Below are positions 1 through 58,600 of a stretch of DNA of 64,000 nucleotides, piece after piece. The position numbers and the translations under genes were made by a program. Every line of letters starts with the position of its first letter. The stretch's first letter is position 1. This DNA comes from a virus: positions 1-64,000 of the IMG/VR virus record IMGVR_UViG_3300027852_000039, one strand, 5' to 3'. The notes under the pieces were generated by a model, which did not search any database, was not told the origin of the DNA, and saw only the letters and a program-made list of their open reading frames with translations.

Positions 1-2
1 CA

Positions 3-16885: not shown

Positions 16886-17285
16886 TCGAGAATACATCGA
16901 CATCGAGGTCGTCATGGACTGGAGCGATCCGGGTCCGGAGGGGATGTCTGTTCGTCCTGGAGCGCTGAAGGTCGACGAGTACATGAAGAACTCCGTCGTT
17001 CTTTCGAGCTTCGATGTGAGGACTCCTCCGGTCGGAAAGACGACGGAGATCGAGTTCGGTGAGGACGGGAAGTGTCGGATCAAGATGAAGATCGAACGCA
17101 CGTACGCGGAAGCGATCCTCGAAGGCGCGATGTTTGCGAACCCTGGATTCATCGCGAAGAAGTGGACCGAGAAGGACGACGGGACGAAGGAGTACGAAGA
17201 GGGCGATCTTCTCTCCATTGGACTCGTCGCGAAACCTCCCGCTGAGAGTCAAGACAATGGCGAAGATCCCGGATCTAAAGGCTAA
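16875..17285 (+). CDS. Hypothetical 136-residue protein
   Basis: Overlaps the previous gene by 11 bases; GGGGAGG lies 9 bases upstream. An alpha/beta pattern of acidic strands (IDIEVVMDW, MKIERTYAEAILEGAMF) suggests a compact domain. The tail overlaps the next ORF start. It lies directly before the clamp region and may act with it; no family recognised. Confidence 0.6.
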   Translation: MESDREYIDIEVVMDWSDPGPEGMSVRPGALKVDEYMKNSVVLSSFDVRTPPVGKTTEIEFGEDGKCRIKMKIERTYAEAILEGAMFANPGFIAKKWTEKDDGTKEYEEGDLLSIGLVAKPPAESQDNGEDPGSKG

Positions 17286-17640
17286 GGTTGACGTGTCGTT
17301 GTCCGAACAGTTGAAGATTTTTGTTGAGATAATGAGGGCGTTCGGGATCTCGACAGTGGATGCGGCGAAGAACTTCGAAGAGTTCGGGAAAGCGATGAAG
17401 AAGATTCAGCCGAAGAACCCGGACGCGGTTGAGATGGATCTCCCCCCTTACGATGACGGTCTTTCGGATTTCTGCAAGAACACGGTCGCGATAGGAGAAC
17501 AGGGAAAACCGCAACAGGTCACGAGCTGGAAGGCCACGATCGGACCGACCGGAAGATTTCCCGCGACCTTCCCGATGGAAGCATCCAAAGGAAGCGACGG
17601 ATTGTACAACCCACAAACGGAAAAGAAGGAGGAGTCGAAG
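17257..17640 (+). CDS. N-terminal ORF running without a stop into the sliding clamp
   Basis: 128 codons from ATG 17257 (MAKIPDLKAK) in the same frame as the clamp, with no stop between. It is not part of the canonical beta-clamp fold: a helical first half (FVEIMRAFGISTVDAAKNFEEF) and a glycine/proline-rich second half. Either translation gives a 541-residue fusion as well as the clamp, or the upstream reading is a minor product. No strong ribosome site stands before 17257. Confidence 0.45.
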
Positions 17641-18882
17641 ATGAATGTTGAGTTTTCACGCGACGTACTCGAAGAAAAACTCTCATACGCGAGGGTCTTC
17701 ACAGAAGCAAAGGGATCGATGCAACGACTCGACGCGGTCCTCTGTGAAGCGAAGAAGCTGGAGGGAGGAAGAACCGTCCTTCAGATCACAACGACAAACC
17801 TTGAGACGTCCTATGTCGGTCTAGTCGACTGCGATGTGAAGGAGGAGGGGACGGTCTGTCTCAACGCTGCGAAGCTTCTCGATATTGTGAAGACGTTGAA
17901 CCGAGAAGCGGCGGCGTCTCTCACCGTGACGAAGAAGGATCCGGAGACGGTCCTCCTGAAGAGCGGTCGATCGAAGTTCAAGCTGAAACTGTTTCCTCCG
18001 GAGGAGTTCCCGAAGCTCTCGAAGGTCAAGTACACGGAGGGGATCCCGATCAACCCGTTCACGCTGTCGAGAGCAATCCGGAAAGCGAAGAAGGGAACGT
18101 CCAAACAGTTACAGACGGGTCGGGTCGGACTGGAGTCTCTTCTCTTCCGGTTCGAGGGAAAAGACTTGAAGAAGCTCTTTCTCGTGAATGTCGGGACGGA
18201 CGGTCATCGTTTGGCATACGTGAGGAACAAGATCCCTCTCGACGAATCTCAGATCGCTTCACAAGAGCTTCCTCCCTGGATCAAGGGAGCGGAGGACGGA
18301 AAAGCGCGAGAGTACGTTCTTCCGATCTCAGGACTCCTTCAGCTTGAGAGGGTCGTCACGGACTATCTGTCGTCACTGAAGGAGGGAGACGAGGAGATTC
18401 CGGTCGAGGTTGCTCCGGATGAAGAAACCCGAGCGATTGCGTTCGCGATCAACGACTCGATTCTTCATCTTCAATGTATCAACATGATGTATCCGGATTT
18501 CGAGGCGATCAGGAAGCACGAGTTCGGTGTGACGCTCCACGTGGATCTCCCGCAAATATCGGCGGCGCTGAAGCGGGTTGCGGTCCTCACAGATTCCAAG
18601 CATCGCGAGGTCACGCTGAAGGCGAGATCGACCGAGCTTGATATGAAACACGTCAGCGCGGAGATCGGAGAAGCTCAGGACACGGTCGCTTGTGAACTCA
18701 TGGGGGAACCGTGGGAACTGAACTTCAACGTTACGTATCTCCGAGAAGGCGTCCAGGGGATCGCGGAGGAGGAGGACGTCTTGATCGAGATCGCGGAGGG
18801 AGGAAAACCCGTCCGGATCCGGGGATCGAAAAATGCGTACGCGGACGAGTTCGAGTATATCTTGATGCCGCTCAGGATATAG
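17641..18882 (+). CDS. dnaN: DNA polymerase III beta-type sliding clamp
   Basis: 413 residues from ATG 17641, chosen for its AAGGAGGAG ribosome site. The three-domain DnaN pattern is visible: EFSRDVLEEKLSYA at the start, LQITTTNLETSYVG, LLDIVKTLNREA, PEEFPKL, then LLFRFEGK.....VNVGTDGHRLAYV (the typical domain 2 strand with TDGHRLA), INMMYPDFEAI, and a C-terminal FEYILMPLRI where family members end in (Y/F)V(V/I)MP(M/L)R-like strands. It tethers a polymerase to DNA; no polymerase gene is in the window. Slightly longer than the usual ~370 residues. Confidence 0.9.
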   Translation: MNVEFSRDVLEEKLSYARVFTEAKGSMQRLDAVLCEAKKLEGGRTVLQITTTNLETSYVGLVDCDVKEEGTVCLNAAKLLDIVKTLNREAAASLTVTKKDPETVLLKSGRSKFKLKLFPPEEFPKLSKVKYTEGIPINPFTLSRAIRKAKKGTSKQLQTGRVGLESLLFRFEGKDLKKLFLVNVGTDGHRLAYVRNKIPLDESQIASQELPPWIKGAEDGKAREYVLPISGLLQLERVVTDYLSSLKEGDEEIPVEVAPDEETRAIAFAINDSILHLQCINMMYPDFEAIRKHEFGVTLHVDLPQISAALKRVAVLTDSKHREVTLKARSTELDMKHVSAEIGEAQDTVACELMGEPWELNFNVTYLREGVQGIAEEEDVLIEIAEGGKPVRIRGSKNAYADEFEYILMPLRI

Positions 18883-18900
18883 CGGCGCGGAGGAACAGAG

Positions 18901-39734: not shown

Positions 39735-40072
39735 GACACCAACAGTACAATCTCCGGATAGAGGTCGAGGAGAAGCGGACCGTCATTCGGATGTCCAAGC
39801 TCGGGATGTTGGACATCCTGTCCGCGTTGAGCAATCTGAACCGGATGTCGACAGAGATCTCGGAGAAGGAGTGGAGGGAGAGGGACGAACCGTTCGTCGT
39901 GCGGTTTCTGAGTAAACCGCTCGGAAACATCGAATGGATACTCGATCCGAAATTCGAGCGCGAGATCCTGGAGCAACAGCGCGCGGAAATCGAGGAAAGA
40001 GTCCGCAAGACATGGGGAGCGGCAAATGAGACGAAGGTATTGTCCATGCGGAGCAAGGATCGCGGAGGATGA
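39731..40072 (+). CDS. Hypothetical 113-residue protein
   Basis: The ATGA overlaps the previous stop. Alpha/beta start (YNLRIEVEEKRTVIRM), a central WRERDEPFVVRFL, then a charged helix. Overlaps the next gene by 47 bases. Confidence 0.55.
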   Translation: MRHQQYNLRIEVEEKRTVIRMSKLGMLDILSALSNLNRMSTEISEKEWRERDEPFVVRFLSKPLGNIEWILDPKFEREILEQQRAEIEERVRKTWGAANETKVLSMRSKDRGG

Positions 40073-40532
40073 CAACCCGTGTCCTTTTTGTGGGAAGGAG
40101 CGGGAGACGAAGCCGTCGATGTTCACGACGCCGACGTTCTTTCAGGAGAAGGATCCCGTCAAACTTCTCACAGTGATCGAGGACTACATTGACAAAGGAC
40201 CGTTCGACGATTCACACATCACGAAGTCGTTTCCGATGATCCCCTTCGTGGAGATCATCGGAAACGACATGGGGTTAGGGTGCGAGATAACGAAAGACCT
40301 GATCTCGAAGACGACGAGTAACTCGCCCATCATGTACTACAAAATGCTTCAGGCGCAAAAGGACAAGGAGATCGAGAAGCTCAAGGAAGAGATGCGCGGG
40401 GAGATCATCAAGGAGCTTGGAATCCCGAAGTCGATCCTGAACATGCGGACTGGACCGGCGAAGAAGGAGAAGCGAAGACCCACGGAGCGAACCCGGAGGA
40501 TCATTCGTCCGGGGATGAAGAAGGAGGAATAA
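40026..40532 (+). CDS. Zinc-ribbon protein with C-terminal RRIIRP motif
   Basis: 168 residues. An N-terminal two-CxC/CxxC ribbon (YCPCGARIAEDDNPCPFCG) is followed by a helical middle and a charged coiled coil (KDKEIEKLKEEMRGEIIKEL). It ends RTRRIIRPGMKKEE (motif 40494-40511). Function unknown; the tag is shared with seven other proteins. Confidence 0.65.
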   Translation: MRRRYCPCGARIAEDDNPCPFCGKERETKPSMFTTPTFFQEKDPVKLLTVIEDYIDKGPFDDSHITKSFPMIPFVEIIGNDMGLGCEITKDLISKTTSNSPIMYYKMLQAQKDKEIEKLKEEMRGEIIKELGIPKSILNMRTGPAKKEKRRPTERTRRIIRPGMKKEE

Positions 40533-43895: not shown

Positions 43896-44451
43896 GGACA
43901 TTCGAGCGCGATGCGCGATCCATACGAACAACTCTCTCGGGATCGTTGAATACGAGGGAGAGGACGGAATCCGGACCCTGAGCGTGGGACAGTGCGGAAC
44001 GTGCATGAAGAACCGGGAGAAGTGGGCGAAAGACAAGGCGATCTCTGCGATGGTTCTCGCGATCGATTCCTTCAAACTGGAGGACATTATGAAGATCGTC
44101 GAGGGGATTCTCGCGCGGTTGAGTCCGGACAGCAACTTGAAGATCGCGGAGGACATCGTCCTGTCCCTGGGCATGGACAGGTTGATCGCTTTGGAGGGAA
44201 CGGTCGGGACACAACAGGCGGCCCTTCACGCGAGGGAAGGAGGTAAGCGTGATTCTGGGGATCCTCTCGTCATGAACAGGATCGTCAAGGAGATCGTCGA
44301 TAGATCGGACATGCTCCGACCTGGAGGGGTCGTCGAGGTAGCGAACAGGATCGTGAAGGAGATGGATCTTGAGGCTCTCGCGGAGTTTGATTTCGAGATC
44401 TCTGCAAGAATGTCGGAGCTTGAAGCAAAAAGGAAGGAGTCGGAGCGATGA
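43888..44451 (+). CDS. Hypothetical 187-residue protein
   Basis: AAAGGAGGTGGTTTGCG before ATG. C-x2-C (CGTC) and an H/C pair near the start, then two helical repeats around IVKEIVDRSDML and RIVKEMDLEALAEF. No family recognised. Overlaps both neighbours. Confidence 0.6.
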   Translation: MSEDIRARCAIHTNNSLGIVEYEGEDGIRTLSVGQCGTCMKNREKWAKDKAISAMVLAIDSFKLEDIMKIVEGILARLSPDSNLKIAEDIVLSLGMDRLIALEGTVGTQQAALHAREGGKRDSGDPLVMNRIVKEIVDRSDMLRPGGVVEVANRIVKEMDLEALAEFDFEISARMSELEAKRKESER

Positions 44452-44714
44452 AAACGAAGGAGATCAGGAACGATACGCAGTTAATGCAATACGCGATCTC
44501 GATCATCGAGGAACTGAGGGACGAGAAGTCCGGACACGTCTGGACGGTGAGGATTCAACTCGGGGGGATGCGCGCGAGACTCGATCGGTTGACCTACGAA
44601 GAAGTGACGCATTTGTCCGGGTTCCTCTTGAACATCCAGGGGATAGAGGTCGAGGTTGTCAAGACGAAGGAGCTTCAAGAGAGGGAGGAAGAGGAGAAGA
44701 GCGGGGGAGATTGA
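44448..44714 (+). CDS. Hypothetical 88-residue protein
   Basis: ATGA overlap. Helical, then a beta strand pair (HVWTVRIQLGGMRARL, IEVEVVKTKEL) and an acidic tail. No family recognised. Confidence 0.55.
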   Translation: MKTKEIRNDTQLMQYAISIIEELRDEKSGHVWTVRIQLGGMRARLDRLTYEEVTHLSGFLLNIQGIEVEVVKTKELQEREEEEKSGGD

Positions 44715-44756
44715 GGGACGGAAAAGGGGTTGAAGCGAAGCATGTAGACAAAACGA

Positions 44757-44835
44757 CGGACTTGTGAACTCTCGGAATGAGGCAAAGTCCGCGATTCCAA
44801 ACGAGAAGCATGAATGATGTGTACACTTCTATAAA
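44757..44835 (+). promoter_or_regulatory. Hairpin and TATAAA box before the packaging genes
   Basis: CGGACTT and AAGTCCG (44757-44763 and 44785-44791) form a 7-bp stem. TATAAA at 44830-44835 is a good -10, but no matching -35 is seen. The next ATG is at 44844 with no ribosome site, so a transcript starting here would be nearly leaderless. Confidence 0.35.
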
Positions 44836-44843
44836 AAAGATCA

Positions 44844-45323
44844 ATGGCGACGACGAAACGCGAGCGACAAGAGGAGTTCCTTTTCCTGTATCCTCAATGC
44901 GGGTATTCGATCACTCGGACGATCCGGAAGATGAGTCCTCCTCTTCATCGGAATCAGGTCTATCGATGGAAGTCGGAGAAGGGCTTTAAGGAAAAACTCG
45001 CGGCGCTCGACATGGAGCAAGCGGACATCGCAAAGGATCAGATGTGGAGATGGTTCATCGTTCCCACGAAGGTCAAAGAGGACAAGGACGGAAACCCGGA
45101 GATAGATCCGGAGACGGGAGAGGAGAAGCGGATCCCCGCGAAACCGAATCTCACAGCGTTGATCTTCTGGATGAATATGACGGGAGACTTCGTCGGGTTC
45201 GACTTGGAGAAGGTACTCAAACAGGAAGAGCTTCAGCGGAAGAACAAGGAGCGGACGAAGAAGAAGGGTCGGAGGATCGTTCGTCCATCTGACGTGAAAG
45301 CGGTGAAGAAGGAGAAGTCATGA
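44844..45323 (+). CDS. Probable small terminase-like HTH protein with RRIVRP motif
   Basis: 159 residues. ERQEEFLFLYPQCGYSITRTIRKM followed by HRNQVYRWKSEKGFKEKL (in outline) is the homeodomain-like fold found in many phage small terminase or terminase-associated proteins. A helical oligomerisation region and a basic tail follow, with GRRIVRPSDVKAV (motif 45270-45287). Gene order, about 2.4 kb before the large terminase, supports a packaging role; a regulator is the alternative. Confidence 0.6.
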   Translation: MATTKRERQEEFLFLYPQCGYSITRTIRKMSPPLHRNQVYRWKSEKGFKEKLAALDMEQADIAKDQMWRWFIVPTKVKEDKDGNPEIDPETGEEKRIPAKPNLTALIFWMNMTGDFVGFDLEKVLKQEELQRKNKERTKKKGRRIVRPSDVKAVKKEKS

Positions 45324-45622
45324 CGGTCGACCTGTTGCATATTTCTCTCGTCGGTGCGTGCGTCGTGTTCGTTGCGCTCGTCTTCTATCTTGGACAGAGG
45401 AGGGAGCGCTCGATCTGGATCCGGAGCGGTCGAGAGAACAGGTTCATGGTGTTCGGAGACAGGAGGTTTTTCGTGTTCAACGCGACAGAATTTGATATAG
45501 TCGACCGCAAGACAGCGGAGGTAGTTGCGGAAGCGGCGCAACGGGGAGAGAATCCCGTCAAGCGAATCACGAAGGCGTTCCGAGCTTTTCGGGAAGAGAT
45601 GTCTTCGAAGAAGGAGTCGTAG
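45320..45622 (+). CDS. Single-pass membrane protein
   Basis: 100 residues; ATGA overlap. Hydrophobic helix at 7-25 (ISLVGACVVFVALVFYLG), then a basic, beta-rich cytoplasmic part. No family recognised. Confidence 0.6.
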   Translation: MTVDLLHISLVGACVVFVALVFYLGQRRERSIWIRSGRENRFMVFGDRRFFVFNATEFDIVDRKTAEVVAEAAQRGENPVKRITKAFRAFREEMSSKKES

Positions 45623-45624
45623 TC

Positions 45625-45888
45625 GTGGCGAGGAAAGACGTCTCTGATCTTCAAGTCTGTTTCGTCTATTGGTTGAGATCGGACTTCCACTTCAAGCAAT
45701 GGCCGGAACAGATCCTCTCGACGATCACGGGAGAACCGGAGAAGGTTTGCTTCCGAGCAATGGAGCGCGCTTACGATCGTGATCTGATCGAGTACGGCAT
45801 GTCGCTCCGAGCGGGATGGTTGAGCGATAAGGGGAGGGAGCTTCTCTCGAACGCTTCAGGAGAGGATCTCGGGAGGACCATCCATTGA
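45625..45888 (+). CDS. Winged-helix-like hypothetical protein
   Basis: 87 residues from GTG 45625. The order of helices and the final LIEYGMSLRAGWLSDKGRELL recall a small winged helix. No ribosome site stronger than AAGAAGGAG. DNA binding is a guess. Confidence 0.5.
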   Translation: MARKDVSDLQVCFVYWLRSDFHFKQWPEQILSTITGEPEKVCFRAMERAYDRDLIEYGMSLRAGWLSDKGRELLSNASGEDLGRTIH

Positions 45889-46412
45889 CGTTGACAGATG
45901 CGATCAAGCGACACGGACTCGGGAGCGATGAGACAGGAAGGGCGCTCCTTGCTTACGTGCGCGGAATTGTGTACAACAAGATGAACGCGGACAACGAGAA
46001 ACAGCGGGAGATGATCGCTCGATGTGTCGCGGGAGGATGGGAAGCATTATCGAAGAACCGGAAGAAGCTTCAGACGGAGAATCATCACTTCGCGGAGCGG
46101 GTCGTCCGGTCGAGGGTTGCGAGTGTCTTCAGGACGTACAGAGCGGAGCGGAAGAGGGAGGGGATCTTCCTGTCGCTCCTGGACGTCGAGGAGTATGAAC
46201 TCGCGACGAAACAGGAACTCCTTCTCGTGAGGATCCGAGACGAGATTCTTGACGAGATCGGAATCAAGGCGAAGTGCAAAGCGCGGAAGATGGCGCTCGA
46301 CGTATTGCAAGGAAGGCGAGAGATCTCTTCGTATAGTGCGGAGGATCAACGAACCATCAAAACTTTCGTATGGAGGATTATCGATTATGTCGATCCTGAT
46401 CCGTCCCCCTGA
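45885..46412 (+). CDS. Possible sigma-factor-like protein
   Basis: 175 residues from TTG 45885, overlapping the previous stop (TTGA). ALLAYVRGIVYNKM, then FAERVVRSRVASVFRTYRAERKREG, then LSLLDVEEYE has the helical spacing of sigma region 2, and a C-terminal helix pair (ALDVLQGRREISSYSAEDQRTIKTFVWRI in outline) could be region 4. Similarity is to pattern only. If true it would switch on the packaging and structural genes that follow. Confidence 0.4.
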   Translation: MTLTDAIKRHGLGSDETGRALLAYVRGIVYNKMNADNEKQREMIARCVAGGWEALSKNRKKLQTENHHFAERVVRSRVASVFRTYRAERKREGIFLSLLDVEEYELATKQELLLVRIRDEILDEIGIKAKCKARKMALDVLQGRREISSYSAEDQRTIKTFVWRIIDYVDPDPSP

Positions 46413-46806
46413 GAAGAGCGCGGAGGAAGTCTTCATCAAGCTCCTGGCGCACGAGATGAAGGACACGTTTATGATGGATCTGTTCCAAGCACTTCAGTAT
46501 CCCGACATGAAAGCGTCCAAGGGGAAAGGAAAGAAGGAGGAGGACGAAGACGCAAAAGCTCAGACCCCGGACAAGAACTTCCCCGCTGAGTTCTATCACA
46601 TCCTGTCGCATGGGGTCGGAAGGAGACTCATAATCCCGAGGAAAAACACGATCGACTCGTTGATTTCAAAAGCGGAGATGTACGTGTTCATCCGGGACCA
46701 GAAGAACCCGGATGAGGCGTATCGCGCGGCGATGGCGAGATACAAGCTTTCCCGAGGAGACATTGATCGGATCTTTAGGATGGTCCGGAGCATTGCGGAG
46801 AAATAG
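46387..46806 (+). CDS. Hypothetical 139-residue protein
   Basis: ATG 46387 after TATGGAGGATTATCGATT. Helical with a charged middle (KGKGKKEEDEDAKAQ) and a final three-helix part (DEAYRAAMARYKLSRGDIDRIF in outline). No family recognised. Confidence 0.55.
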   Translation: MSILIRPPEKSAEEVFIKLLAHEMKDTFMMDLFQALQYPDMKASKGKGKKEEDEDAKAQTPDKNFPAEFYHILSHGVGRRLIIPRKNTIDSLISKAEMYVFIRDQKNPDEAYRAAMARYKLSRGDIDRIFRMVRSIAEK

Positions 46807-46808
46807 AC

Positions 46809-47216
46809 ATGCCGATGTTAGATCTTCGACAGGTTCTCGCTCGCGTGAGCGAGGCACAGTTCAATCGGATCGAGCGCCTTATGTCGTTCGTGGAGGCGAT
46901 CGAGAAGAAGGAGTTCGATCCGCTCATGGTCAAGAGTAACGGATACAAGGCGCACGAACTCGAACGAGGATACAAGATCGCATCGAAGGCGCTCGTCGAT
47001 ATTTGGAAGGCGACGTTGGCGCAACAAGTCTCCTCGATTTCGGAGGATGTCCCGGACGATCTCGAAGCGCTGTACTACGAACTCTTGTCAATGTCCGAGA
47101 AAGATGTCGGTCGTCTTCAGGCGGCGGTCAAGCTCTTCCGGAGCGATGTGGACATCGAGCAATTCCTCGCGCTCGCGGAGAAGATCGAAGGAGGGAAGGA
47201 TGGGAAAGAGCCTTGA
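46809..47216 (+). CDS. Hypothetical helical protein
   Basis: 135 residues. All-helical (VSEAQFNRIERLMSFVEAIE, LYYELLSMSEKDVGRLQAAVKLF in outline). Two bases after the previous gene; the next gene begins inside it. No family recognised. Confidence 0.6.
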   Translation: MPMLDLRQVLARVSEAQFNRIERLMSFVEAIEKKEFDPLMVKSNGYKAHELERGYKIASKALVDIWKATLAQQVSSISEDVPDDLEALYYELLSMSEKDVGRLQAAVKLFRSDVDIEQFLALAEKIEGGKDGKEP

Positions 47217-47475
47217 CGAAAAGCTCCGCAACAAACCGAGGAAAGAGTACATAGCGTTCCTCTGTCCATTCCAGGAGATAGAGGACAGAATGAACTTTCA
47301 TGCGGAACAAGGTTATTGGTATCTCGACGCGAAGGAGTCGCGGCAACCCTGGAGAGGAGGAAGCGAACCACAGTGGTTGATTATCATGAGGTATCGACCG
47401 AAGGAAGCAATGACTAAGCAAGGTGGGACGAAAACCAAACCCGTTATTCCCTACGGAGGAACTCGTGAGCAATAG
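47200..47475 (+). CDS. Hypothetical 91-residue protein
   Basis: ATG 47200 follows AAGGAGGGAAGG. A small alpha/beta domain with IAFLCPFQEIEDRMNFHAEQGYWYL. The same outline (a residue pair F-x-E-x-L/M-N-H/F-x-A-E-x-GY) appears in the next gene, so the two may be duplicates. Confidence 0.55.
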   Translation: MGKSLDEKLRNKPRKEYIAFLCPFQEIEDRMNFHAEQGYWYLDAKESRQPWRGGSEPQWLIIMRYRPKEAMTKQGGTKTKPVIPYGGTREQ

Positions 47476-47716
47476 ACTGTACAACTACATCGCGAAGACG
47501 GTTCCGTTTGGAGGGCTTGAAGAGTTCCTGAATCATTTTGCTGAACATGGATACGTCCTCGTGAGCAATCATCCGGCGACGATCGATGTGTCTCATCGAG
47601 AAGCAGAAACCGAAGACGGGAAGGAAGGAGCTACCGGAACGCTCGTGTACGACAAGTTCAATGTCGTCATGGCTCAGTACGTCGGACCGAGAGGTCCAGA
47701 AGTCCAGGGGAACTAA
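47465..47716 (+). CDS. Hypothetical 83-residue protein
   Basis: GTG 47465 with GGAGGAACTC upstream. FGGLEEFLNHFAEHGYVLVSNHPATID in outline is similar in plan to the preceding gene (IEDRMNFHAEQGYWYL). Located just before the terminase. Function unknown. Confidence 0.55.
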   Translation: MSNRLYNYIAKTVPFGGLEEFLNHFAEHGYVLVSNHPATIDVSHREAETEDGKEGATGTLVYDKFNVVMAQYVGPRGPEVQGN

Positions 47717-47718
47717 TC

Positions 47719-49494
47719 TTGACGGACTCAATCCTCGAAGCACTTGACACCCTCCGAAGAATCAAGTCTCCCAAAACAGCGAAACAGGTCCGCGAGATCG
47801 TTCCTATATCGGAGTGGCTTGAATCTCCGTACTACGTCGGGGAAGACGGTCTGAAGCTCTACGACGTATGGAAGGACGAGCTTGCGAAGGTCTTCGACGA
47901 GGACAAGCCGAAATCCGAGTGGATCGTAACAGGATCCCTCGGGAGCGGGAAGTCGACGGCGGGGGAGTTCGCGGAAGTCCGGAAGGTCTACGAGCTTTCA
48001 TGCTTTGAACCGATCCCGTATCTGTTCAATTTCATGAAATCGTCGACGATCATGTTCATCTATTTCTCGATCACTCTGGAGCAAGCTCAGAGAACGGGGT
48101 TCGGGGAGATCCGGAGAAGGGTTGACTCGATCCCGTACTTCACAAGGCGCTTCGGTAGAAACCGAGACAAAGACAAAGCGCTCGAATTCAAGAACCTCTC
48201 GATCATCTACGGATCGGACGTCGGTCATCAAGTAGGAACCCATCTGATTAGCGCTCTACTGGACGAAGCGAACTTCATGGATCGGAAGTTCGATGCGATG
48301 AAAAAAAACTACTCAAAAGCTCAGGCGCTTTACAATAGCGTCCTGAACCGGAGACTGAACCGCTTTGTGATTGACGGCGTCGATCATGGTCTGTCCGTTC
48401 TTGTGTCTTCAGCGGCAACGACGTCGAGCTTCACGGAAGAGCGCATCGAGGCGGCGAGGGACAACTCGCGATCGCACGTCTCTGAAGTGACGGCGTTCAA
48501 GGTCAAGCGGAAAGAATACGACCTGAACGAGTTCCTCGTGTTCGTGGGGACGGAGCTTGTCGACCCGTGTCTGATCGACAACTATGGAGACTTGACCCGG
48601 ACGTGCGAAGCGCTCGGGACCGAATGTCCGGAGCATGGATCCCTGAGACGGAGAGTCCGAAGGATCGAAGAGAAATACAGAGATCTCTTTCAATGGGTTC
48701 CCTCCGAACAGTTCCGGGACAGCTTCGAGAAGAACCTCCTCGATTCGATTCAAGACGTCCTCGGGATCTCGACGCGACCGCTCGGGAAACTCTTTCAGAG
48801 TCATTCGAAATACGCGAAGGTAATCGAGCTTGCGGACTATCTCGAAGCGAGACATCCGTTCACGAGCGAGGTCATCACGATCTCGACCGAGAACAACAAG
48901 ATGATCCAGGACTTCATAATCGAGGAACGGATGGGTCCGAAGAACAAGGCGCGATGTATCCACGTCGATCAATCCAAGTCGAACGACTGGACGGGGATCG
49001 CAAGCGCATACGTGGACGGATACATCGACATTCAGGTCGGAGAGAAGAGTCAGAGGGTTGCGCTCGTCCGGGTTGAATTCGTGATCGTGATCGAACCTCC
49101 AAAGAAACCCGCAGAGATCCCGATCGAGCGAACACGTCTCTTCGTCAATTGGTTGAAAGACAATAAGTACAGAGTCTCTCGTGTGACCTATGACGCATGG
49201 GGATCCGTGGAGTCGATTCAGATTCTTCAGCGTCAAGGGATCGCGGCGTCTCACTATTCCGTCGACAAGGACGACGAACCATACAAGCAACTCGTCACGA
49301 TGATAAACCAGGGTCCGAGGATCCTCCTGTACGATCATCCGATTTTCAGGCGCGAGCTTTTCAACCTGGATCATGATCGGATGAAAGGGAAGGTCGACCA
49401 TCCGGAGAAGGGATCCAAGGACGCAGCGGACGCGGTTTGTGGCGCGGTGAACAACGCTCTCCTCGCAATTCTCCCCGAACCGAGGATTCGGTAA
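47719..49494 (+). CDS. terL: Terminase large subunit
   Basis: 591 residues from TTG 47719. ATPase: Walker A TGSLGSGKST at residues 71-80, Walker B LISALLDEANF with Asp182-Glu183. RNase-H-like nuclease: Asp417 in IHVDQSKSNDWTGIA, and Asp565-region in GSKDAADAVCGAVNNAL, where the family has its last catalytic acid. It cuts concatemeric DNA and drives it through the portal encoded next. No ribosome site is obvious, so translation is probably coupled to the upstream gene. Length is typical. Confidence 0.92.
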   Translation: MTDSILEALDTLRRIKSPKTAKQVREIVPISEWLESPYYVGEDGLKLYDVWKDELAKVFDEDKPKSEWIVTGSLGSGKSTAGEFAEVRKVYELSCFEPIPYLFNFMKSSTIMFIYFSITLEQAQRTGFGEIRRRVDSIPYFTRRFGRNRDKDKALEFKNLSIIYGSDVGHQVGTHLISALLDEANFMDRKFDAMKKNYSKAQALYNSVLNRRLNRFVIDGVDHGLSVLVSSAATTSSFTEERIEAARDNSRSHVSEVTAFKVKRKEYDLNEFLVFVGTELVDPCLIDNYGDLTRTCEALGTECPEHGSLRRRVRRIEEKYRDLFQWVPSEQFRDSFEKNLLDSIQDVLGISTRPLGKLFQSHSKYAKVIELADYLEARHPFTSEVITISTENNKMIQDFIIEERMGPKNKARCIHVDQSKSNDWTGIASAYVDGYIDIQVGEKSQRVALVRVEFVIVIEPPKKPAEIPIERTRLFVNWLKDNKYRVSRVTYDAWGSVESIQILQRQGIAASHYSVDKDDEPYKQLVTMINQGPRILLYDHPIFRRELFNLDHDRMKGKVDHPEKGSKDAADAVCGAVNNALLAILPEPRIR

Positions 49495-49545
49495 AGAATC
49501 CAAGGACTTGCCGAAGACATCTCTGAAACTCCCTGATCGCGCGCG

Positions 49546-49591
49546 CACTATATCTTGAATAGGAGGCCCGTTTCCTATGCAAGATATAGTG
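49546..49591 (+). promoter_or_regulatory. Hairpin enclosing the portal ribosome site and start codon
   Basis: CACTATATCTTG (49546-49557) is the perfect inverse of CAAGATATAGTG (49580-49591). Inside it ATAGGA (49559-49564) pairs with TCCTAT (49573-49578) around an 8-base loop. AGGAGG (49561-49566) and the ATG (49577-49579) are therefore inside an 18-bp stem, with one A-G mismatch. Translation of the portal would need this to be opened. Confidence 0.7.
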
Positions 49592-51655
49592 TCCGGTTCG
49601 AAGGCGCTCGCACCCTTCAATCCTGGAATCCCCCTGTCAAATTACCGAATCATCCCTCGATCCCCTGTCGTCGCGGATCGTCTTCGGTCAGTCGCGAAAG
49701 CGCATAAGCTGACGGATCCAGGATGGGCGCAAGTGTTCGGGTCCGGGAAGTGGTCTATCTCGGAAGAGAACTTTTACAAACAACACCTTTGGGTCTACGC
49801 GTGCATAAATCGGATCTCGTCCAACGTCGGCGGCGTCCCCTACGAAGTGTACAAGGGGGACACGGAAGTTCCGGTCGATGACGAGAAGGACGATTGCTTC
49901 CGACTCTTCCGAGATGTCAACCCGCACCTTTCCCGATACCAGCTATTCGAAGGAACTTCGATCTTCCTCTATGGGTGGGGCGAAGCGTTTTGGGTTCTTG
50001 AGAAACTCGGGATGCCGACCGTCCAAGAGATTTGGATGTTCCGTCCGGATCACTTCAAGCATGTCGTCAAAGACGGGAAGCTCATCGGATGGGTATACGA
50101 CCGGGGAGTGAAACAGGTTCCGCTCGAACTCGACGAAGTGATTCATTTCCGACTGTTCAATCCGTACGACGACATTCGCGGATTCAATCCGATGCAAGTC
50201 GCAAAGCTCACGGTCGAGACGGATTACTTCGCGCAAAAGTTCAACTGGAATTTCTTCAAACAGGGTGCGACCCCTGGACTCTCTCTCACGACAGAGCAAG
50301 CACTCGACGACGATCAGTACGATCGCGTCATGGCGCAATGGGAACAGAAGTATTCCGGACTGTCGAAGTCTCATTCGATCGCGATCCTCGATGGAGGACT
50401 CAAGTTCGACAAGATGCCGATCACGCAGAGGGACATGGACTTCGGAGGTCTTCGGAAGATGGCGAGGGAGGAGGTCTGTGCAATCCTCGGAGTTCCTCCC
50501 GCTGAAGTCGGGATCCTCGAATACTCTCGCGCGTTCGCGAACACGAAGTCGCAAGACAAAGGGTTTTGGCAGAAGACCCTGATCCCTCGGATGCATTACT
50601 TCGAAGACATCCTGAACACGAATTTCTTTCCCGTCCATTTCCCGGAACATCAAGGGTACTTCGATCTGTCGGTTGTCGAAGCGCTTCAAGCGGATCTCCA
50701 TGAGAAGGCGAAGACGGCGAAGACCTTTCATACGATGGGATATCCGATCAACGTTATCAACGAGAGCATGGGTCTCGGGTTCCCGGAAATCAACGGGGGA
50801 GAGTTCGGATACCTTCCGCAAAACTACATCCCCGTTACGGCGGTGAAGGACGCGAAGAAGACGGTCGACAAGGTGCGCGAGGAGATCGGAGAGAAGATCA
50901 CGCGACGGATCGTTCGACCGAAAAGGAAGTACACGAAGGTCGGTTCTCTCAACACGCGGAAGATCGAAGCGATGAGAGTGCGGTACGCGGAAGAACTTCG
51001 CCTTGAGATCGAGAGCGCTAAGGAGCGGATCCGCGATCATCTGAAGGGTGTCTTCGGATACGGAAAGAAGATGCGGACGAAAGGACCGAAACAGTACGCT
51101 CCCGAAGTCATCGAGGGAATCTTTTCCGATTGGGTCAAGGGATGGAAGGAGAAGGGTGCGGAGTACCTCAAGGAAGCGTTCGAGTTTGGTCTGTCTTCTG
51201 CAGAGGAACTCATGGGAGACTTGCTCACGAGCGAGACGTTCCGAGAGACGGTTCTCATTCAATTGACGTCGAAGAACGACGCGTTCGTCCAAAAGAGGAT
51301 CGATTCAATCCTCGCACAACTCGCGAGCGAGCTTTCAGATATAGGATGGGAAGGCGAAGGGGCGGCGTCGGTCGCGGTTGATCTGTTGAACCGACACACC
51401 TTCCGCGCTGAAACCTTCGCGAATTTTGTTCTCTCTGTAGCGCACCATTCCTTCGTAGCGGAGGGGGCAGAGAGAAAGTATCAAGGCATCTGGCACACAA
51501 CCGGAGACGGGAACGAGTGTCCCACTTGCGAGGGGATGCCTTCCGGAAATCCGTGGAAGCTCGGAGAGATGACGACGCTTCCGGGAGAGGACGTCATCTG
51601 TAACGGTCGGTGTCGATGCTATGTGGAGATCGTGAATCCAGAAGAAGGGGGTTAG
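49577..51655 (+). CDS. HK97-type portal protein fused to a MuF-like head morphogenesis domain
   Basis: 692 residues. Residues ~50-430 are the portal: FYKQHLWVYACINRISSNVGGVPYEVY in outline, then VIHFRLFNPYDDIRGFNPM, ALGVPP-type ILGVPPAEVG, and the NESMGLGFPEINGGEFGYLP end that portals share. Residues ~465-692 are MuF-like, with CPTCEGMPSGNPWKLGE and CNGRCRCYVE, the cysteine and final C-R-C elements of that domain. RRIVRP at residues 443-448 (50903-50920) is exactly in the linker. The portal forms the dodecameric DNA gate of the capsid. Confidence 0.9.
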   Translation: MQDIVSGSKALAPFNPGIPLSNYRIIPRSPVVADRLRSVAKAHKLTDPGWAQVFGSGKWSISEENFYKQHLWVYACINRISSNVGGVPYEVYKGDTEVPVDDEKDDCFRLFRDVNPHLSRYQLFEGTSIFLYGWGEAFWVLEKLGMPTVQEIWMFRPDHFKHVVKDGKLIGWVYDRGVKQVPLELDEVIHFRLFNPYDDIRGFNPMQVAKLTVETDYFAQKFNWNFFKQGATPGLSLTTEQALDDDQYDRVMAQWEQKYSGLSKSHSIAILDGGLKFDKMPITQRDMDFGGLRKMAREEVCAILGVPPAEVGILEYSRAFANTKSQDKGFWQKTLIPRMHYFEDILNTNFFPVHFPEHQGYFDLSVVEALQADLHEKAKTAKTFHTMGYPINVINESMGLGFPEINGGEFGYLPQNYIPVTAVKDAKKTVDKVREEIGEKITRRIVRPKRKYTKVGSLNTRKIEAMRVRYAEELRLEIESAKERIRDHLKGVFGYGKKMRTKGPKQYAPEVIEGIFSDWVKGWKEKGAEYLKEAFEFGLSSAEELMGDLLTSETFRETVLIQLTSKNDAFVQKRIDSILAQLASELSDIGWEGEGAASVAVDLLNRHTFRAETFANFVLSVAHHSFVAEGAERKYQGIWHTTGDGNECPTCEGMPSGNPWKLGEMTTLPGEDVICNGRCRCYVEIVNPEEGG

Positions 51656-51659
51656 GAGA

Positions 51660-53183
51660 ATGGACAAGAAGCAAGTCTTCGCTCACATCAAAGAAATGAA
51701 GGACAGGAAGTTCTTCGCTTATGCTTCGACACGATCTCTCGACCGGGACGGGGAGGTCATCCTTCCCGAAGCGTTCAACAACATAATTGAGTTCATGAAG
51801 AACCCGGTTCTCTTGCAGATGCACGATTACCAGAAACCCTCTGCCGGAAAGATTTTGAACCTCGACATCGATTCGAAGGGACTCCTTTTCGAGGGGGAGT
51901 TCGCTCCCACGGACGAAGGTCGAATGTTCAGGACCTTGTACGAAGAGGAATTCATGAACGCGTTCTCGATCGGGTTCATTCCGAACTCCTGGACCGAGAT
52001 CGATCCGGAGAACAACGAGACGGTCTATCGTCTGACCACTCCGAACGGAGTCGTTGAGTTCAACCTTGACGACTACAAGAAAAGCGGGACGGTTTATCGC
52101 GTGTACACGGACGTCGAACTTCTCGAAGTATCGGTCGTTCCTGTCCCCGCTAACCCGGACGCGCTTCAGCGGATGCACCAGCTTTCCGTAAAGCTCAAGG
52201 AGTGGGTCAACAAGCTGGACGTAAAGGGGAAGGACGCGAAGACCGGAGACACGGACGATCCGAACAAGGACAAGGAGCTTCCCGGACGTGAGATCGAAGT
52301 GGGGGACGTGGTTCAACTCGAAACCGAACACGGGTATTTCCTCACGGAAGAGCTTGAAGGATTCAAGAGCTTCCGGCGAGTAGACGACGCGGAGGTCGTC
52401 GATCACAAGGGAGTCGACGCGATCCTCGGATTCGACGAGGAGAGGAAGGAGACGACCGTCTGTTACCTGTACAGCGCGGAAGCGTGGACGGAAGAGAAGG
52501 CGACCAAGGACGTCAACGCGCGCGAGGTCGAAGGACAGATCGGGAACTTCTACGCGGCGAAGGGAGAAGGAGAGTCCGAGGGGGGAGACGACAAGGAGGA
52601 AAGGAAGCGAGTCATCCCCTACAAGAAGTATCCGACCATCGATCGTTCGTGGGATGCTGGCGCGGCAAGGAAGCGCCTTGTCTCGTGGGCGGGAGGTCCG
52701 GAGAAGGAGGACATCGACTTCTCGAAATTCCGTCTCGGGTTCGGGTGGTACGACGAGTCGAAAGCGGATGCTGTGACGGCGTACAAGTATCCGCATCACG
52801 ACGTCATTGACGGCGCGCTGAAGACGAACATTCGCGGTGTCGTCGCGGCGATGCAAGTCGTCAACGGTGCGCGAGGAGGGGACTCTCTCTCCGACGCGGA
52901 TAGGAAGAAGCTGTACAACCATCTCGCGAAGCATTATCGAGACGCGGACATGGAACCTCCCGAGCTGAAGGAGTTCGATGATCCGGAACTCGACCCTGCT
53001 CTTGACGCTCTCTTCGAGGTCAAGCGAGAGGTCGCGGACCTTGCGAAGATGGTCAGTGAGATCAAAGAGAAAATGGTCCCGAAGTCCGAAGGATCAGGAG
53101 ATCCGTCTGAGGACACAAAGGACGCGGAAACGTGGGACGCAATCGCGAACGGAGTGAAAGAGATCTCTGAAGCGGTTCAGTAA
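51660..53183 (+). CDS. Prohead protease with long C-terminal extension
   Basis: 507 residues. The HK97 protease fold is at 1-185: FFAYASTRSLDRDGEVI, His55 in LLQMHDYQ, Ser103 in NAFSIGF, and ELLEVSVVPVPANP, where the third acidic residue lies. The extension, ~200-450, has a charged linker, then FGWYD...AYKYPHHDVIDG and an NHLAKHYRDADMEPPEL repeat-like element known from other phage proteases and head proteins (DUF2213-like). A final coiled coil (VKREVADLAKMVSEIKEKM) could act as a scaffold. Such fusions serve as protease-scaffolds. Confidence 0.88.
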   Translation: MDKKQVFAHIKEMKDRKFFAYASTRSLDRDGEVILPEAFNNIIEFMKNPVLLQMHDYQKPSAGKILNLDIDSKGLLFEGEFAPTDEGRMFRTLYEEEFMNAFSIGFIPNSWTEIDPENNETVYRLTTPNGVVEFNLDDYKKSGTVYRVYTDVELLEVSVVPVPANPDALQRMHQLSVKLKEWVNKLDVKGKDAKTGDTDDPNKDKELPGREIEVGDVVQLETEHGYFLTEELEGFKSFRRVDDAEVVDHKGVDAILGFDEERKETTVCYLYSAEAWTEEKATKDVNAREVEGQIGNFYAAKGEGESEGGDDKEERKRVIPYKKYPTIDRSWDAGAARKRLVSWAGGPEKEDIDFSKFRLGFGWYDESKADAVTAYKYPHHDVIDGALKTNIRGVVAAMQVVNGARGGDSLSDADRKKLYNHLAKHYRDADMEPPELKEFDDPELDPALDALFEVKREVADLAKMVSEIKEKMVPKSEGSGDPSEDTKDAETWDAIANGVKEISEAVQ

Positions 53184-53243
53184 CCCACGGCGGCGCGGAT
53201 CGGGAAAGACGGTTTTCAACTCTGAAGGATGGAGGGAAGCGAA

Positions 53244-54380
53244 ATGGATGAGAAAGTACAGGAGGTTCTTCAGTCCTTGGAGGAACTGAAGGGACTCGCG
53301 GGGAAGATCACAACCCTGGAGGAAATGCACAAGGCGACGGACGCGATCGCACAGAAGGCGTACGGCGCGATCGAGAGTCTGAAAGCCGCGAGGAAGATCG
53401 GGATCACCGACTTTGACTCCGAAGGCGAGTCGAAGAAGTTCCTCGAATGGTTCATGCACGCGGCGAACGACTTCAAGTTCGTGGACCCGGAGAAGAAAGC
53501 AACGATGGTCGGAGACTCGGCGGCGAGCGGTGGATACCTCGTCCCGGAGGAGTTCCTTCCGACACTGATCCGGATCATCTACAAGTACGGGAAGTTCCGA
53601 CAGGGTGCGACCGTGGTCCCCATGAACACGGACACGCTCAAGATCCCTTCCCTCGCTTCTGAGCTTACGGTTCAGTGGTTGTCCACTCAGGCGTCCTCAA
53701 TGAACGAGGTCGCTCCGACGTTCTCCGAGGTCGAACTCGCCGTCAAGACGATGGCGTGTCTCGTCCCGGTCGCGAACGAACTCATGATGGACTCCATGAT
53801 CGACGTCGCGAACCTTCTCGCGACCCTCATGGGCGAAGCGGTCGCGAAGGAGGAGGACAGGATCGGGTTCGCCGGGGACGTGACTGGAAACGGCGATCCA
53901 TACAACGGGATCCTGAACGCGACAGGCGTGAACATCGTTACGCTCGGGACCGGAAGGACGAAGTTCGCTGATCTGACCGCTGACGATATCGCGGACATGA
54001 TCGACGCAGCGGAGGACGACGACAACGCGGTGTTTGTCCTTCATCGTACGATCTTCAACGTGATCCGGAAGCTGAAGGATCAGAACGGGAATTACATCTA
54101 TCAGTCTCCGGACGCGGGAGAACCCGGAACCATTTGGGGATACCCGTACGTTAAGTCGAACGTCATGCCGAAGATCTCGCAGAGCGCCGCAGATACCTCG
54201 TATGTGATCTTCGGGAACCTTCGGTATGCGTACCTCGGGAACCGTCAACAGATGCAGATCGCTTCCTCCCCGCACGCGGGTTTCACGAAGAACGTCACGT
54301 ACGTTCGAATGATTGAGAGGATCGCGATCGCTGTCGGTGCCGGGGATGCTTTCTCGGCTCTGAAGACTGCCGCGCAATAG
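53244..54380 (+). CDS. HK97-fold major capsid protein
   Basis: 378 residues; GGAGGGAAGCGAA before ATG. The first ~85 residues are a charged helix (delta domain) expected to be removed by the protease; VGDSAASGGYLVPEEFLPTLIRII in outline then begins the mature shell protein, with the usual GGYLVP signature. VPMNTDTLKIP, EVELAVKTMACLVPVANELMMDS and DPYNGILN are further hallmarks. Ends with a long beta strand and YVRMIERIAIAV. Confidence 0.93.
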   Translation: MDEKVQEVLQSLEELKGLAGKITTLEEMHKATDAIAQKAYGAIESLKAARKIGITDFDSEGESKKFLEWFMHAANDFKFVDPEKKATMVGDSAASGGYLVPEEFLPTLIRIIYKYGKFRQGATVVPMNTDTLKIPSLASELTVQWLSTQASSMNEVAPTFSEVELAVKTMACLVPVANELMMDSMIDVANLLATLMGEAVAKEEDRIGFAGDVTGNGDPYNGILNATGVNIVTLGTGRTKFADLTADDIADMIDAAEDDDNAVFVLHRTIFNVIRKLKDQNGNYIYQSPDAGEPGTIWGYPYVKSNVMPKISQSAADTSYVIFGNLRYAYLGNRQQMQIASSPHAGFTKNVTYVRMIERIAIAVGAGDAFSALKTAAQ

Positions 54381-54422
54381 TCGACAGGCCTGGAGAGTGG
54401 TTGCTGAAGGAGGGGTCGGGTC

Positions 54423-54617
54423 GTGGAATCTATGGAGTGTGTTGTCAAGCGCCCGTTCTTTCATCGTCGGGTCGGCCGGCGACTGGAGAAGGACGAGCGG
54501 ATTGACTTGACCCCTCACGAAGCGAAAGCAATCGGACCGAGGTTTATATCGATCACGACGAGAGGTCTGAAAGGACCGCATTCGCACAAGATGATCGAGA
54601 ACGCTTCCAACAAGTAA
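54423..54617 (+). CDS. Small basic head-region protein
   Basis: 64 residues from GTG 54423 (AGGAGGGG upstream). Basic, with IDLTPHEAKAIGPRFIS. Similar small proteins occur after the capsid gene in many siphoviruses; role unknown. Confidence 0.55.
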   Translation: MESMECVVKRPFFHRRVGRRLEKDERIDLTPHEAKAIGPRFISITTRGLKGPHSHKMIENASNK

Positions 54618-54638
54618 AAAAGAAAAGAGGAGGTTCTC

Positions 54639-55181
54639 ATGGGAACACAAGTCTTCGGTGACAGCGTTTATGTGAACGTTGCTTCCGCAGTGATCGCGAG
54701 CGTTGTTGCCACGATTCCGGGTCGCGATGCGTCCGCGATCAACATCAACACGATCGACGTTACGGGAGACAACGCATCCCAAACCCTTGACGTCTACGTC
54801 GAGACGGGGCGCACGCGCGCGAGCATGGCAATGGCGGCGGGTCAGAGCGTCTGTTACGTCGGCGTGACGAGCGGGTTCGAAGCGGACGACAACGTGATCG
54901 TTCAGCACAAGAGCGGGAAGTATCAGAAGACAACCGTCCTGTCGGTCGGTACGACTTCGATCACGCTCGGGGCGAACCTCACGAACGCGTTCGCGTACGA
55001 CACCGATCGTCCGGATGAGATCATCGAGCTTGAGAAGAAAGCTCAACTCATCATCGGAGCGGGGACGTTGCAAAAGTACGGAGACAAGCAGCTTTGGATT
55101 CCGAGGGGATCCCCCGCGTACTTCGCCGTCTCGAACGGAACGACCGCTGCGATCAATGCGATCGCGGGAGTTTACACGTAG
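54639..55181 (+). CDS. Probable virion (decoration-type) protein
   Basis: 180 residues, AGAGGAGGTTCTC before ATG. Beta-rich and Thr/Ala/Val-rich (VYVNVASAVIASVVATIPG, DVYVETGRTRAS), one helix. The position after the capsid and the composition suggest a surface protein of the head. No family recognised. Confidence 0.5.
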   Translation: MGTQVFGDSVYVNVASAVIASVVATIPGRDASAININTIDVTGDNASQTLDVYVETGRTRASMAMAAGQSVCYVGVTSGFEADDNVIVQHKSGKYQKTTVLSVGTTSITLGANLTNAFAYDTDRPDEIIELEKKAQLIIGAGTLQKYGDKQLWIPRGSPAYFAVSNGTTAAINAIAGVYT

Positions 55182-55212
55182 AAGATCGGCGCGCAAGCGC
55201 TTACCTCACTCG

Positions 55213-55247
55213 GGGGTCCGCTTTGATGTGGGATCGAAACGGACCCC
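55213..55247 (+). terminator. Hairpin after the decoration-type gene
   Basis: GGGGTCCG (55213-55220) pairs with CGGACCCC (55240-55247); the 19-base interior can pair further (TTTGAT with ATCGAAA, one bulge). Followed by TTATCCCCC. Probably separates head transcripts from the fibre genes. Confidence 0.55.
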
Positions 55248-55301
55248 TTATCCCCCTTCTGGAAGTTAGCTCCTCAACCATGAACGCGAGGAGTCCGTTC
55301 G

Positions 55302-55637
55302 ATGTTAAAAGAGAACGCGAGTTACTTTCCGCTTCAAAGAAACGCCACGGCCCAGGGTACGGATCAAACGGTTGACGCTGTCCCTGTTGCTTCGGCGTCC
55401 GGGTGCATCTGGACGTATCTCGCGGTCAGTGGAGGGAACCGACAACTCGGGAAGATGGAAGCTTCATGGAACTTAGATGGATCGACGATCAGCTATTCGC
55501 GAGAACGGATCGAGGACGTCGGGAATTGTGATGGACTCTCCTCGATGGATGTCGCGTTGAGCGGATCGGATATCGTCTTCCGGTCCTCGTCAAGTAACGA
55601 ATGGACGATCTATTACAGAAGGAGTCGAATCGGATGA
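55302..55637 (+). CDS. Hypothetical virion protein
   Basis: 111 residues, GCGAGGAGTCCGTTCG before ATG. Beta-rich (WTYLAVSGGNRQLGKMEASW, DIVFRSSSSNEWTIYYRR). The next gene begins within its stop. Possible capsid-accessory or fibre chaperone. Confidence 0.5.
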   Translation: MLKENASYFPLQRNATAQGTDQTVDAVPVASASGCIWTYLAVSGGNRQLGKMEASWNLDGSTISYSRERIEDVGNCDGLSSMDVALSGSDIVFRSSSSNEWTIYYRRSRIG

Positions 55638-58600
55638 TACGGAAGAGATCTCTTTTCATACTGCTTCTGATCCTCTCGTTCGTCTCGTCTGCGATCGCCG
55701 GGGACAAGATCTTCGACGAAGGGATCCGGATCGGAACATCGGACGAAACCAAGGACGGGACGGTCCGATACAACGGATCGAACTTCCAGGGATACAAGTC
55801 CGGATGGACGAACCTGGACGACACGGTCGCGGGTGGCGGCGCTCCCTCGGACTCCCTGTATCTGACGCTCGGGTACGACGCGGATCTCAGCGGGGAGCGT
55901 CTGTTCACACCGGGGACCGGACTCTCCGCGACAGACGCGGGAGCGAACTCAACGTACACTCTCGACGTCACATTGTCCCCATTTTCGACGACAAATCTTT
56001 CGGAGGGGTCAAACCTTTACTTTACGGATGAACGCACGGATGACCGCGTCTCGTCGCTCATACAGAACGGAACGGGGTTGACCTGGACGTACGTCGACGC
56101 TTCGAACACCTTAACCGGAAACGTCGCGCTTGTCGCGGGAGAAGGGATCGATGTCTCCGGAGTCACGATCTCCGGGGAAGACGCAAGCGACACGAACAAG
56201 GGGATCGCGACCTTTGATTCCTATTGGTTCAAGGTGACGACTGGGGATGTCTCCGCGTCCGACGATGTCGCGTTATCGTACGATACGCTTGACGGGATGG
56301 CTTTCGATAAACCCGATATGACGATCGTCGACGATGTTGGATTGAAGCTCGATATCGAGAAAGTCGGGGGAGGGGACATGAAGTTCCTCGTCGACGGAGT
56401 CATCTCGACTTTGGATTGTACGACGGGGAGCGGAGCGGGAGGGAAGGCGCGCGTATCGTTGACCGCAGGATCGGACGCTAATACTCCCGCGACGAATTAC
56501 ATTTACATCACGGGCTCGGGAGGGACCGCGACCTTGTCCGCGTCGACGTCTCTTCCGACTGGAGCGTTTGCGTGGATAGGAAAGATCATCGTTCCGGATG
56601 CGACGACCTGGACGTCGACCGGAGCATACGGATTCCAAAGATATACAGAAGCATTTCAGAACGATACGCGGGGACTTCTATCCCACGAGCGAGAGAAGCT
56701 TCGAGCGTTTGGAGCAGTCTATATTAGCGGAGTGTCTCAGAGTCTCGCGATAACGACGAACGTCGGAACTCCGGACAACGTACATCTCGTGACCGGATCG
56801 GGGTCGGTATATCAACTACATCGACAGGCGTTTCCCGCCTTCTCGACCGGACCGTATTACTACGGGAACGGGTCCAATATCTACGAAGAGATCTCTGATC
56901 TGAACGAGCTTCTGACAGATGCGGACGGGGGGTCGATGTCCGGGAAGAAGTTCAACCTTGTCGTATGGGGAGCGGTCAATGTCTCTTCAGGAGAGTGCAA
57001 ACTGTTTGTAAACCTCCCGAACGATTCGTACGTCCGGAACTCGCAAGCGATCTCGGACGTCGACAACACTTCGGACTACACGGTTCCCGACGATATGCGA
57101 TCAGTCGCGTTCATGATCTCCCGGATCGCGCTCGCGCATACGACGACGAGCGGGGGAACCTGGGTGGAACTCGGGACGTATTCCCTTCTTGGATCTCCAT
57201 ACGGAGCTAGGAGCGGAGGAGCGGGAGCGGTCGCGTCAAATGAGTTCGACGACTCGCAGTTCAGGATCTATGACGACGCGGACAATACGAAACTGATTGC
57301 GTTTCAAGCGAGCGGAATCACGACCGCGACGACGCGAACGCTCACGGCTCAGGACTCTGACGGAACGATCGCGTATCTGACGGACATCCCGACAGACATC
57401 TCGGGAGAACCTTTCTATACAGTTTCCCTTTCGGGAAATCTTTCAAATGAAACGATCTTATCAGCCGGTGAAGGAATCGATCTTGCGACGGGTGCTATCT
57501 CGGGAGAAGATGCAAGTTCATCCAACAAAGGGATCTTGTCTATTTCCGACACAGGAAACTTCACGATCACAACGGGGGATATGGTTGCCAATCTTGCGAA
57601 TGGTTCGACCTATTCAAACTTTGGTGTGGTGGGGGATGACACGTTTGATGAACTGTTTGCTGCAATAGATACGGCTTGGCCTTCGGCAACATCACCTGCT
57701 GGAAACGATGGAAATGTCCAATATAACAACGGTGGGGTGTTTGGAGGAGAGGATGAATTTTTTTGGAATGATACTAATAAGTCTCTTTCTCTTGGTACTT
57801 CTTCAAATCCCACTTCTAGTGTAAGACTTCTTGTTCAAGAAGATGATGGAACGAATGCCGCTATTCGTGTAACGACATATTCTAGTTCAGAGGAAGCTTA
57901 CGGTGGGTTACAACTTAGTCACGCACGTGGAACACCAACAATTCCATCTGCCGTTCTCGATCAAGATCACCTTGGTATTTTAGGATTTCTTGGTCACAAT
58001 GGGACCGGCATGCTACCCGGACCTCAGATTGTTGGTGCTGCAACAGAAGATTGGAGTGTTGGCAATCAGGGCTCGGGCATACTTTTGAAAACCATGATTA
58101 ATAATTCAACAACTGCGAATGCAGCCCAATGGATCGACCACGATGGCAATGTTCATATAGGTAATAATATTGATAGAACAACTAATCCTATTATTCGCCT
58201 TGAAGTATCAGAAGATGCAGCCCAAGCTCGGCAATTAATAATTGCTTATGCAGACACAGCAACATATCAATCAGGGGTTCTTGCTTTGGCACGGGGACGA
58301 GGTACAAGAGCTTCTCCAGAAGCAATTGACCTGGATGATAGTCTTGGATATTTGTTGTTTCAGGGACATGACGGGTCTGCAATCGGGCCTGGAGCTTTCT
58401 TTTATGCTGCTGCTACAGAAAACTGGTCTGGAAGTGGTCACGGTGCAAAATTAATTTTAAGGATGGTTGCAAATACTTCTACTACACCTGCTGATGCGAT
58501 AATTATTGAAAACGATGGAGCGGCACAGTTACTTGGTCAAGACGCGAACGCAGTGTCGTATTCCGTCGCTGGGTCAGGCCTGTGTCGAGAGCTTGCAGTC

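Follow-up and report, generated by a model that had tools for sequence, protein, structure and literature searches.

Hairpins over ribosome-binding sites (RBSs) have been described for genes e, soc, 49, I-TevI, and segB of phage T4 and for mobE of the Aeromonas phage Aeh1 (PMC3014915, PMC2988022). In hairpins of the T4 type, a helix formed on read-through transcripts sequesters the Shine-Dalgarno (SD) sequence and/or the AUG codon (PMC3014915, PMC2988022). Hairpins of gene e occur in the T-even phages, while gene e of Aeh1, 44RR, 25, 31, and FelixO1 has no apparent structure (PMC3014915). A long perfect stem can also be created in one step by a template-switch mutation (PMC8794818). Here, we describe a near-perfect 46-base hairpin (49546–49591) at the start of the portal gene of an uncultured phage, identified from the sequence and by repeat search. 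As in the T4 genes listed above and Aeh1 mobE, its 5′ arm lies upstream of the RBS and its 3′ arm lies at or after it. Unlike in T4, the gene concerned encodes the portal protein, and the phage has no detected T4-like structural genes.

The analyzed window consists of bases 1–64,000 of a 75,760-base virus record (54% G + C); genes were predicted on the plus strand only, and all genes used here are on that strand. The two arms of the hairpin, 49546–49564 and 49573–49591, are complementary at 18 of 19 positions and are separated by 8 nt. The left outer arm (49546–49557, CACTATATCTTG) pairs perfectly over 12 bp with the right outer arm (49580–49591, CAAGATATAGTG), and the left inner arm (49559–49564, ATAGGA) forms 6 bp with the right inner arm (49573–49578, TCCTAT), around a terminal loop of 8 nt (49565–49572, GGCCCGTT). 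The single mismatch is A49558 opposite G49579, and folding gives the inner stem one extra G-U pair. The SD sequence AGGAGG (49561–49566), of which AGGA is in the stem and GG nominally in the loop, lies 10 nt before the ATG; motifs of the GGAG/AGGAGG kind are found upstream of most predicted genes in this genome. The right inner arm runs on into the start codon (49577–49579), so that AT is in the stem and G is the mismatched base. The right outer arm corresponds to portal codons 2–5 (Q D I V) and contains ATA, which accounts for 8% of the Ile codons of this phage. The original prediction of a 12-bp outer stem and a 6-bp inner stem enclosing AGGAGG and the ATG, with the second arm within the first portal codons, was thus confirmed. 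The folding energy was −23.4 kcal/mol for the hairpin alone and −32.5 kcal/mol in an 86-nt context (z = −3.4; 1 of 200 shuffled sequences was as good). An intrinsic terminator was ruled out, as had been claimed, because the stem is followed by TCCGGTTCG with no T run and the site was not among the terminator sites found. The hairpin had no Rfam match. It is single-copy, with no further copies of the repeat in the genome; a partial match at 18853–18884 lies across the end of a sliding-clamp gene (17134–18882) and is probably a coincidence.

The portal gene (49577–51655) encodes a protein of 692 aa that matches Pfam PF04860 (Phage_portal, 2.1e-64) and PHROG 12 (portal, 4.1e-74). The protein is long for a portal, and a similar one in Arthrobacter phage Brynnie is annotated as a portal and MuF-like fusion. 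Since an in-frame TGA (49556–49558) closes the portal frame upstream, the start candidates are the ATG at 49577 or later codons. Codon preference in 49577–49732 favors the portal frame, although with a value near the bottom of what genes show, and the predicted N-terminus (MQDIVSGSKALAPFNPGIPL) has a G(I/V)PL stretch in common with that of the portal of a distantly related locus, L015 (MPQILDHTGVPL). Frame statistics, the upstream stop, and the L015 N-terminus favor a start at 49577, while an alternative later start, such as GTG 49733, would take the hairpin off the RBS. Upstream, the gene for the terminase large subunit (47719–49494) ends with a stop codon 51 nt before the hairpin. Its product shows 26–29% identity to annotated phage terminases over 87–97% of its length, and its tblastn matches, at 26–29% identity, were in SIO-2-like Vibrio phages, Rhizobium and Rhodobacter phages, and Thermus phiLo; no Pfam or usable PHROG model matched it. 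Downstream follow the genes for the prohead protease (51660–53183) and the major capsid protein (53229–54380), giving the consecutive order terminase, portal, prohead protease, and major capsid. The protease gene begins 4 nt past the portal stop (51655–51660) without a recognized SD sequence, which suggests that its translation may be coupled to that of the portal gene.

To assess rarity, the hairpin was compared with order-2 Markov genomes of the same trinucleotide make-up, in which ungapped inverted repeats with at least 18 of 19 pairs and a loop of 3–20 nt were counted. A single repeat as good as the portal hairpin appeared in 682 such genomes of 75,760 bases. By energy alone the hairpin is not extreme, as about 20 other 46-nt sites in the genome match or exceed its stability. 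What sets it apart is where it lies and how far its near-perfect pairing extends, not its folding energy, and the hairpin is real and far beyond chance. An assembly artefact was also considered. A fold-back read would put the same gene on both sides of the repeat; because two different genes, terminase and portal, lie on either side of it, arranged as in L015, 49546–49591 is not such an artefact. The ends of the record overlap by 126 bases, indicating that the genome is circular or terminally redundant. At the contig start (window 1–48), bases 1–14 are complementary to bases 35–48, forming a 20-bp hairpin. The far-end copy of the 126-base repeat, within the region L003 12620–12760 (record 75620–75760), is preceded by different sequence, and for this reason the contig-start hairpin is best read as false, a fold-back artefact.

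The extent to which the hairpin could hide the portal start was estimated by calculating an opening cost, namely, the start-region ensemble energy when the stretch from SD to start codon is forced open compared with when it is not, for 117 predicted starts. The portal start ranked first, at 21.5 kcal/mol (median, 8.9; sd, 3.5), in line with the claim that the ribosome site is hidden. When the 5′ untranslated region was shuffled, the mean cost was 12.0 kcal/mol, and the native cost was not reached in any of 500 shuffled sequences. For 74 portal starts, nearly all from relatives, the mean cost was 10.9 kcal/mol (sd, 3.7), and the one that was higher, in L179, has an uncertain start position. Moreover, no other hairpin scoring at least 13 over an SD sequence and start codon was present in this window and approximately 1.4 Mb of related loci. 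As expected for an RBS-sequestering hairpin, the SD sequence and start codon are predicted to be paired in a stable helix, and removing the 5′ arm in the computation makes the site accessible: RNA 5′ ends at 49558–49565, which remove the left arm, lowered the predicted cost from 21.6 to 8.3–3.1 kcal/mol. A ribosome footprint over 49541–49571 reduced it to 1.9 kcal/mol, and either change brings the predicted occlusion down to that of an ordinary start.

Bacterial RNA thermometers such as ROSE and FourU also place a hairpin over the SD sequence and start codon, as the portal hairpin does, and a temperature switch had been proposed for this site. The structure is too stable for such a role: the portal start remained the most occluded of all starts at 37, 50, 60, and 70 °C, and Rfam, as noted above, returned no match.

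No close relatives were found in the collections scanned with the portal, terminase, and capsid proteins and the hairpin sequence. The most similar sequences from alignment-based scans had terminases of up to 44% identity and portals of up to 39% identity. L015, whose terminase is 42% and portal 21–26% identical, has the same terminase-portal order; its portal start lies 15 nt past the terminase stop, its AGAGGA motif is open, and its start region folds no better than shuffled sequence. L099 and L100 have adjacent portals with ordinary starts. Thus, the portal hairpin is absent from relatives at about 40% identity (terminase 42%; other portals 38–39%), from which the hairpin appears to be recent or lineage-specific. 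The original prediction had named relatives with the same start region and no inverted repeat as evidence against a function. Such relatives exist at large distance only, as in L015 with its ordinary start, and none is close enough to judge conservation. Because gene e hairpins are likewise confined to some relatives, absence in distant relatives is no bar to function; at this sequence distance, lineage specificity is still compatible with one. Long near-perfect hairpins also occur in four loci with distant terminase relatives (L105 4881–4933, L109 4888–4919, L119 4771–4829, and L123 4919–4950), at most about 70 nt past the terminase stop. They were rejected as counterparts of the portal hairpin since the likely SD sequence of the next gene lies outside the stem, and they are probably terminators or 3′ stabilizers.

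Taken together, the structure and folding predictions suggest that the 46-nt element acts in cis in the mRNA, where its hairpin would sequester the portal SD sequence and start codon, a reading to which we give about an even chance as far as sequestration as such is concerned. The portal would be poorly translated from transcripts reading in from the terminase gene, in which the SD sequence and ATG would be sequestered; we infer both that the hairpin is adopted during infection of the host cell and that portal synthesis falls as a result. A counterpoint to sequestration is that, with an essential gene so strongly blocked, some step would have to relieve the block. Relief would most likely come from an RNA 5′ end in or after the left arm, produced by initiation or processing there. 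In T4, a late promoter at the 5′ arm of the e and I-TevI hairpins yields short RNAs that escape the structure, whereas none is recognizable at the portal hairpin. No sigma-70-like promoter was found in 44000–56000, though phage-specific promoters would not necessarily match; the left-arm motif was not repeated at other gene starts of the genome, and a Pfam search detected no phage sigma factor or RNA polymerase. As a second choice, a ribosome moving into the left arm might open the site. Either relief route is proposed more tentatively than sequestration itself.

Ribosome-driven opening could also take the form of translational coupling, a variant of the sequestration model in which ribosomes on the terminase gene or on a possible leader ORF (49508–49558) would open the site and tie portal synthesis to upstream translation. 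This speculative ORF of 16 codons (TTG...TGA) has its stop codon in the left arm, immediately upstream of the SD sequence, and could deliver a ribosome to 49541–49571, the region whose coverage brings the predicted opening cost to 1.9 kcal/mol. However, its start is poor, with an SD sequence only 1 nt from the TTG, and chance alone is expected to yield such short ORFs; the terminase stop, 51 nt upstream of the stem, is too far away for direct opening. We consider coupling very unlikely.

The main rival to portal control is a recent template-switch (quasi-palindrome) mutation that copied one arm, leaving a tolerated or mildly harmful by-product with no regulatory role. The portal hairpin resembles the hairpins created by such events in its near-perfect long stem, its short loop, and its absence from relatives, and the claim that its sequence was selected does not follow, since a long stem without mismatches can result from a single template switch (PMC8794818). 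A second near-perfect palindrome (40226–40268), with 16 bp perfect and 18/19 overall, lies inside a coding sequence (40026–40532), where no ribosome-site role was seen for it; at −31.7 kcal/mol, its fold is more stable than any other 46-nt fold in the genome. The two palindromes together are far beyond chance, and the second shows that causes unrelated to a ribosome site can give rise to long palindromes in this genome, which is a further counterpoint to sequestration. On the other hand, a parental sequence is needed to see a switch, and none is known for the portal hairpin. A by-product would also have to fall exactly over the SD sequence and start codon of a gene that is essential, and occlusion as predicted there should be costly if unused; no other start-covering hairpin of such quality occurs in the approximately 1.4 Mb of related loci. 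On this evidence, a template-switch origin without regulation appears possible but unlikely.

The palindrome might instead act as DNA, either as an operator for a dimeric regulator or as a packaging or recombination site between the terminase and portal genes. The hairpin sequence folds almost equally well on both strands, several helix-turn-helix proteins are encoded in the genome, and the terminase gene adjoins the site. Nevertheless, no promoter-like site was seen nearby, and the single copy of the repeat in the genome speaks against a DNA-level role; no support was found for a packaging site, nor for the antisense RNA or protein ligand of the original prediction. A tyrosine recombinase core site was rejected, as a tyrosine integrase (Pfam PF00589) is absent from the 75,760-base record, which likewise speaks against binding at the DNA level. 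A DNA site would also leave the overlap with the SD sequence and ATG unexplained, and we regard it as improbable. An element for mRNA processing or stability between the terminase and portal genes, such as a stem of the RNase III type that sets mRNA ends instead of blocking ribosomes as such, would suit the length of about 19 bp with one mismatch, and the hairpins soon after the terminase stop in L105, L109, L119, and L123 could be cited in its favor. Those hairpins, however, look like terminators or 3′ stabilizers with the likely SD sequence of the next gene outside, and cutting both strands of the portal stem would cut portal codons, which makes this reading highly improbable.

As judged from the folding predictions, the portal hairpin is most probably a translational brake of a type known from phage T4, though with an unusual target. 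A tailed-phage head normally contains hundreds of capsid subunits but a single portal ring, and it is poorly understood how the supply of portal protein is adjusted to this ratio. In a bolder version of this reading, which we consider quite unlikely, the phage would set the amount or timing of its portal by a hairpin switch whose opening would depend on a ribosome, on a phage protein, or on RNA processing, perhaps with the prohead protease included, so that capsid nucleation would be controlled at portal translation. A hairpin over the start of this gene would offer a direct point of control, in a phage that does not belong to the T4 group.
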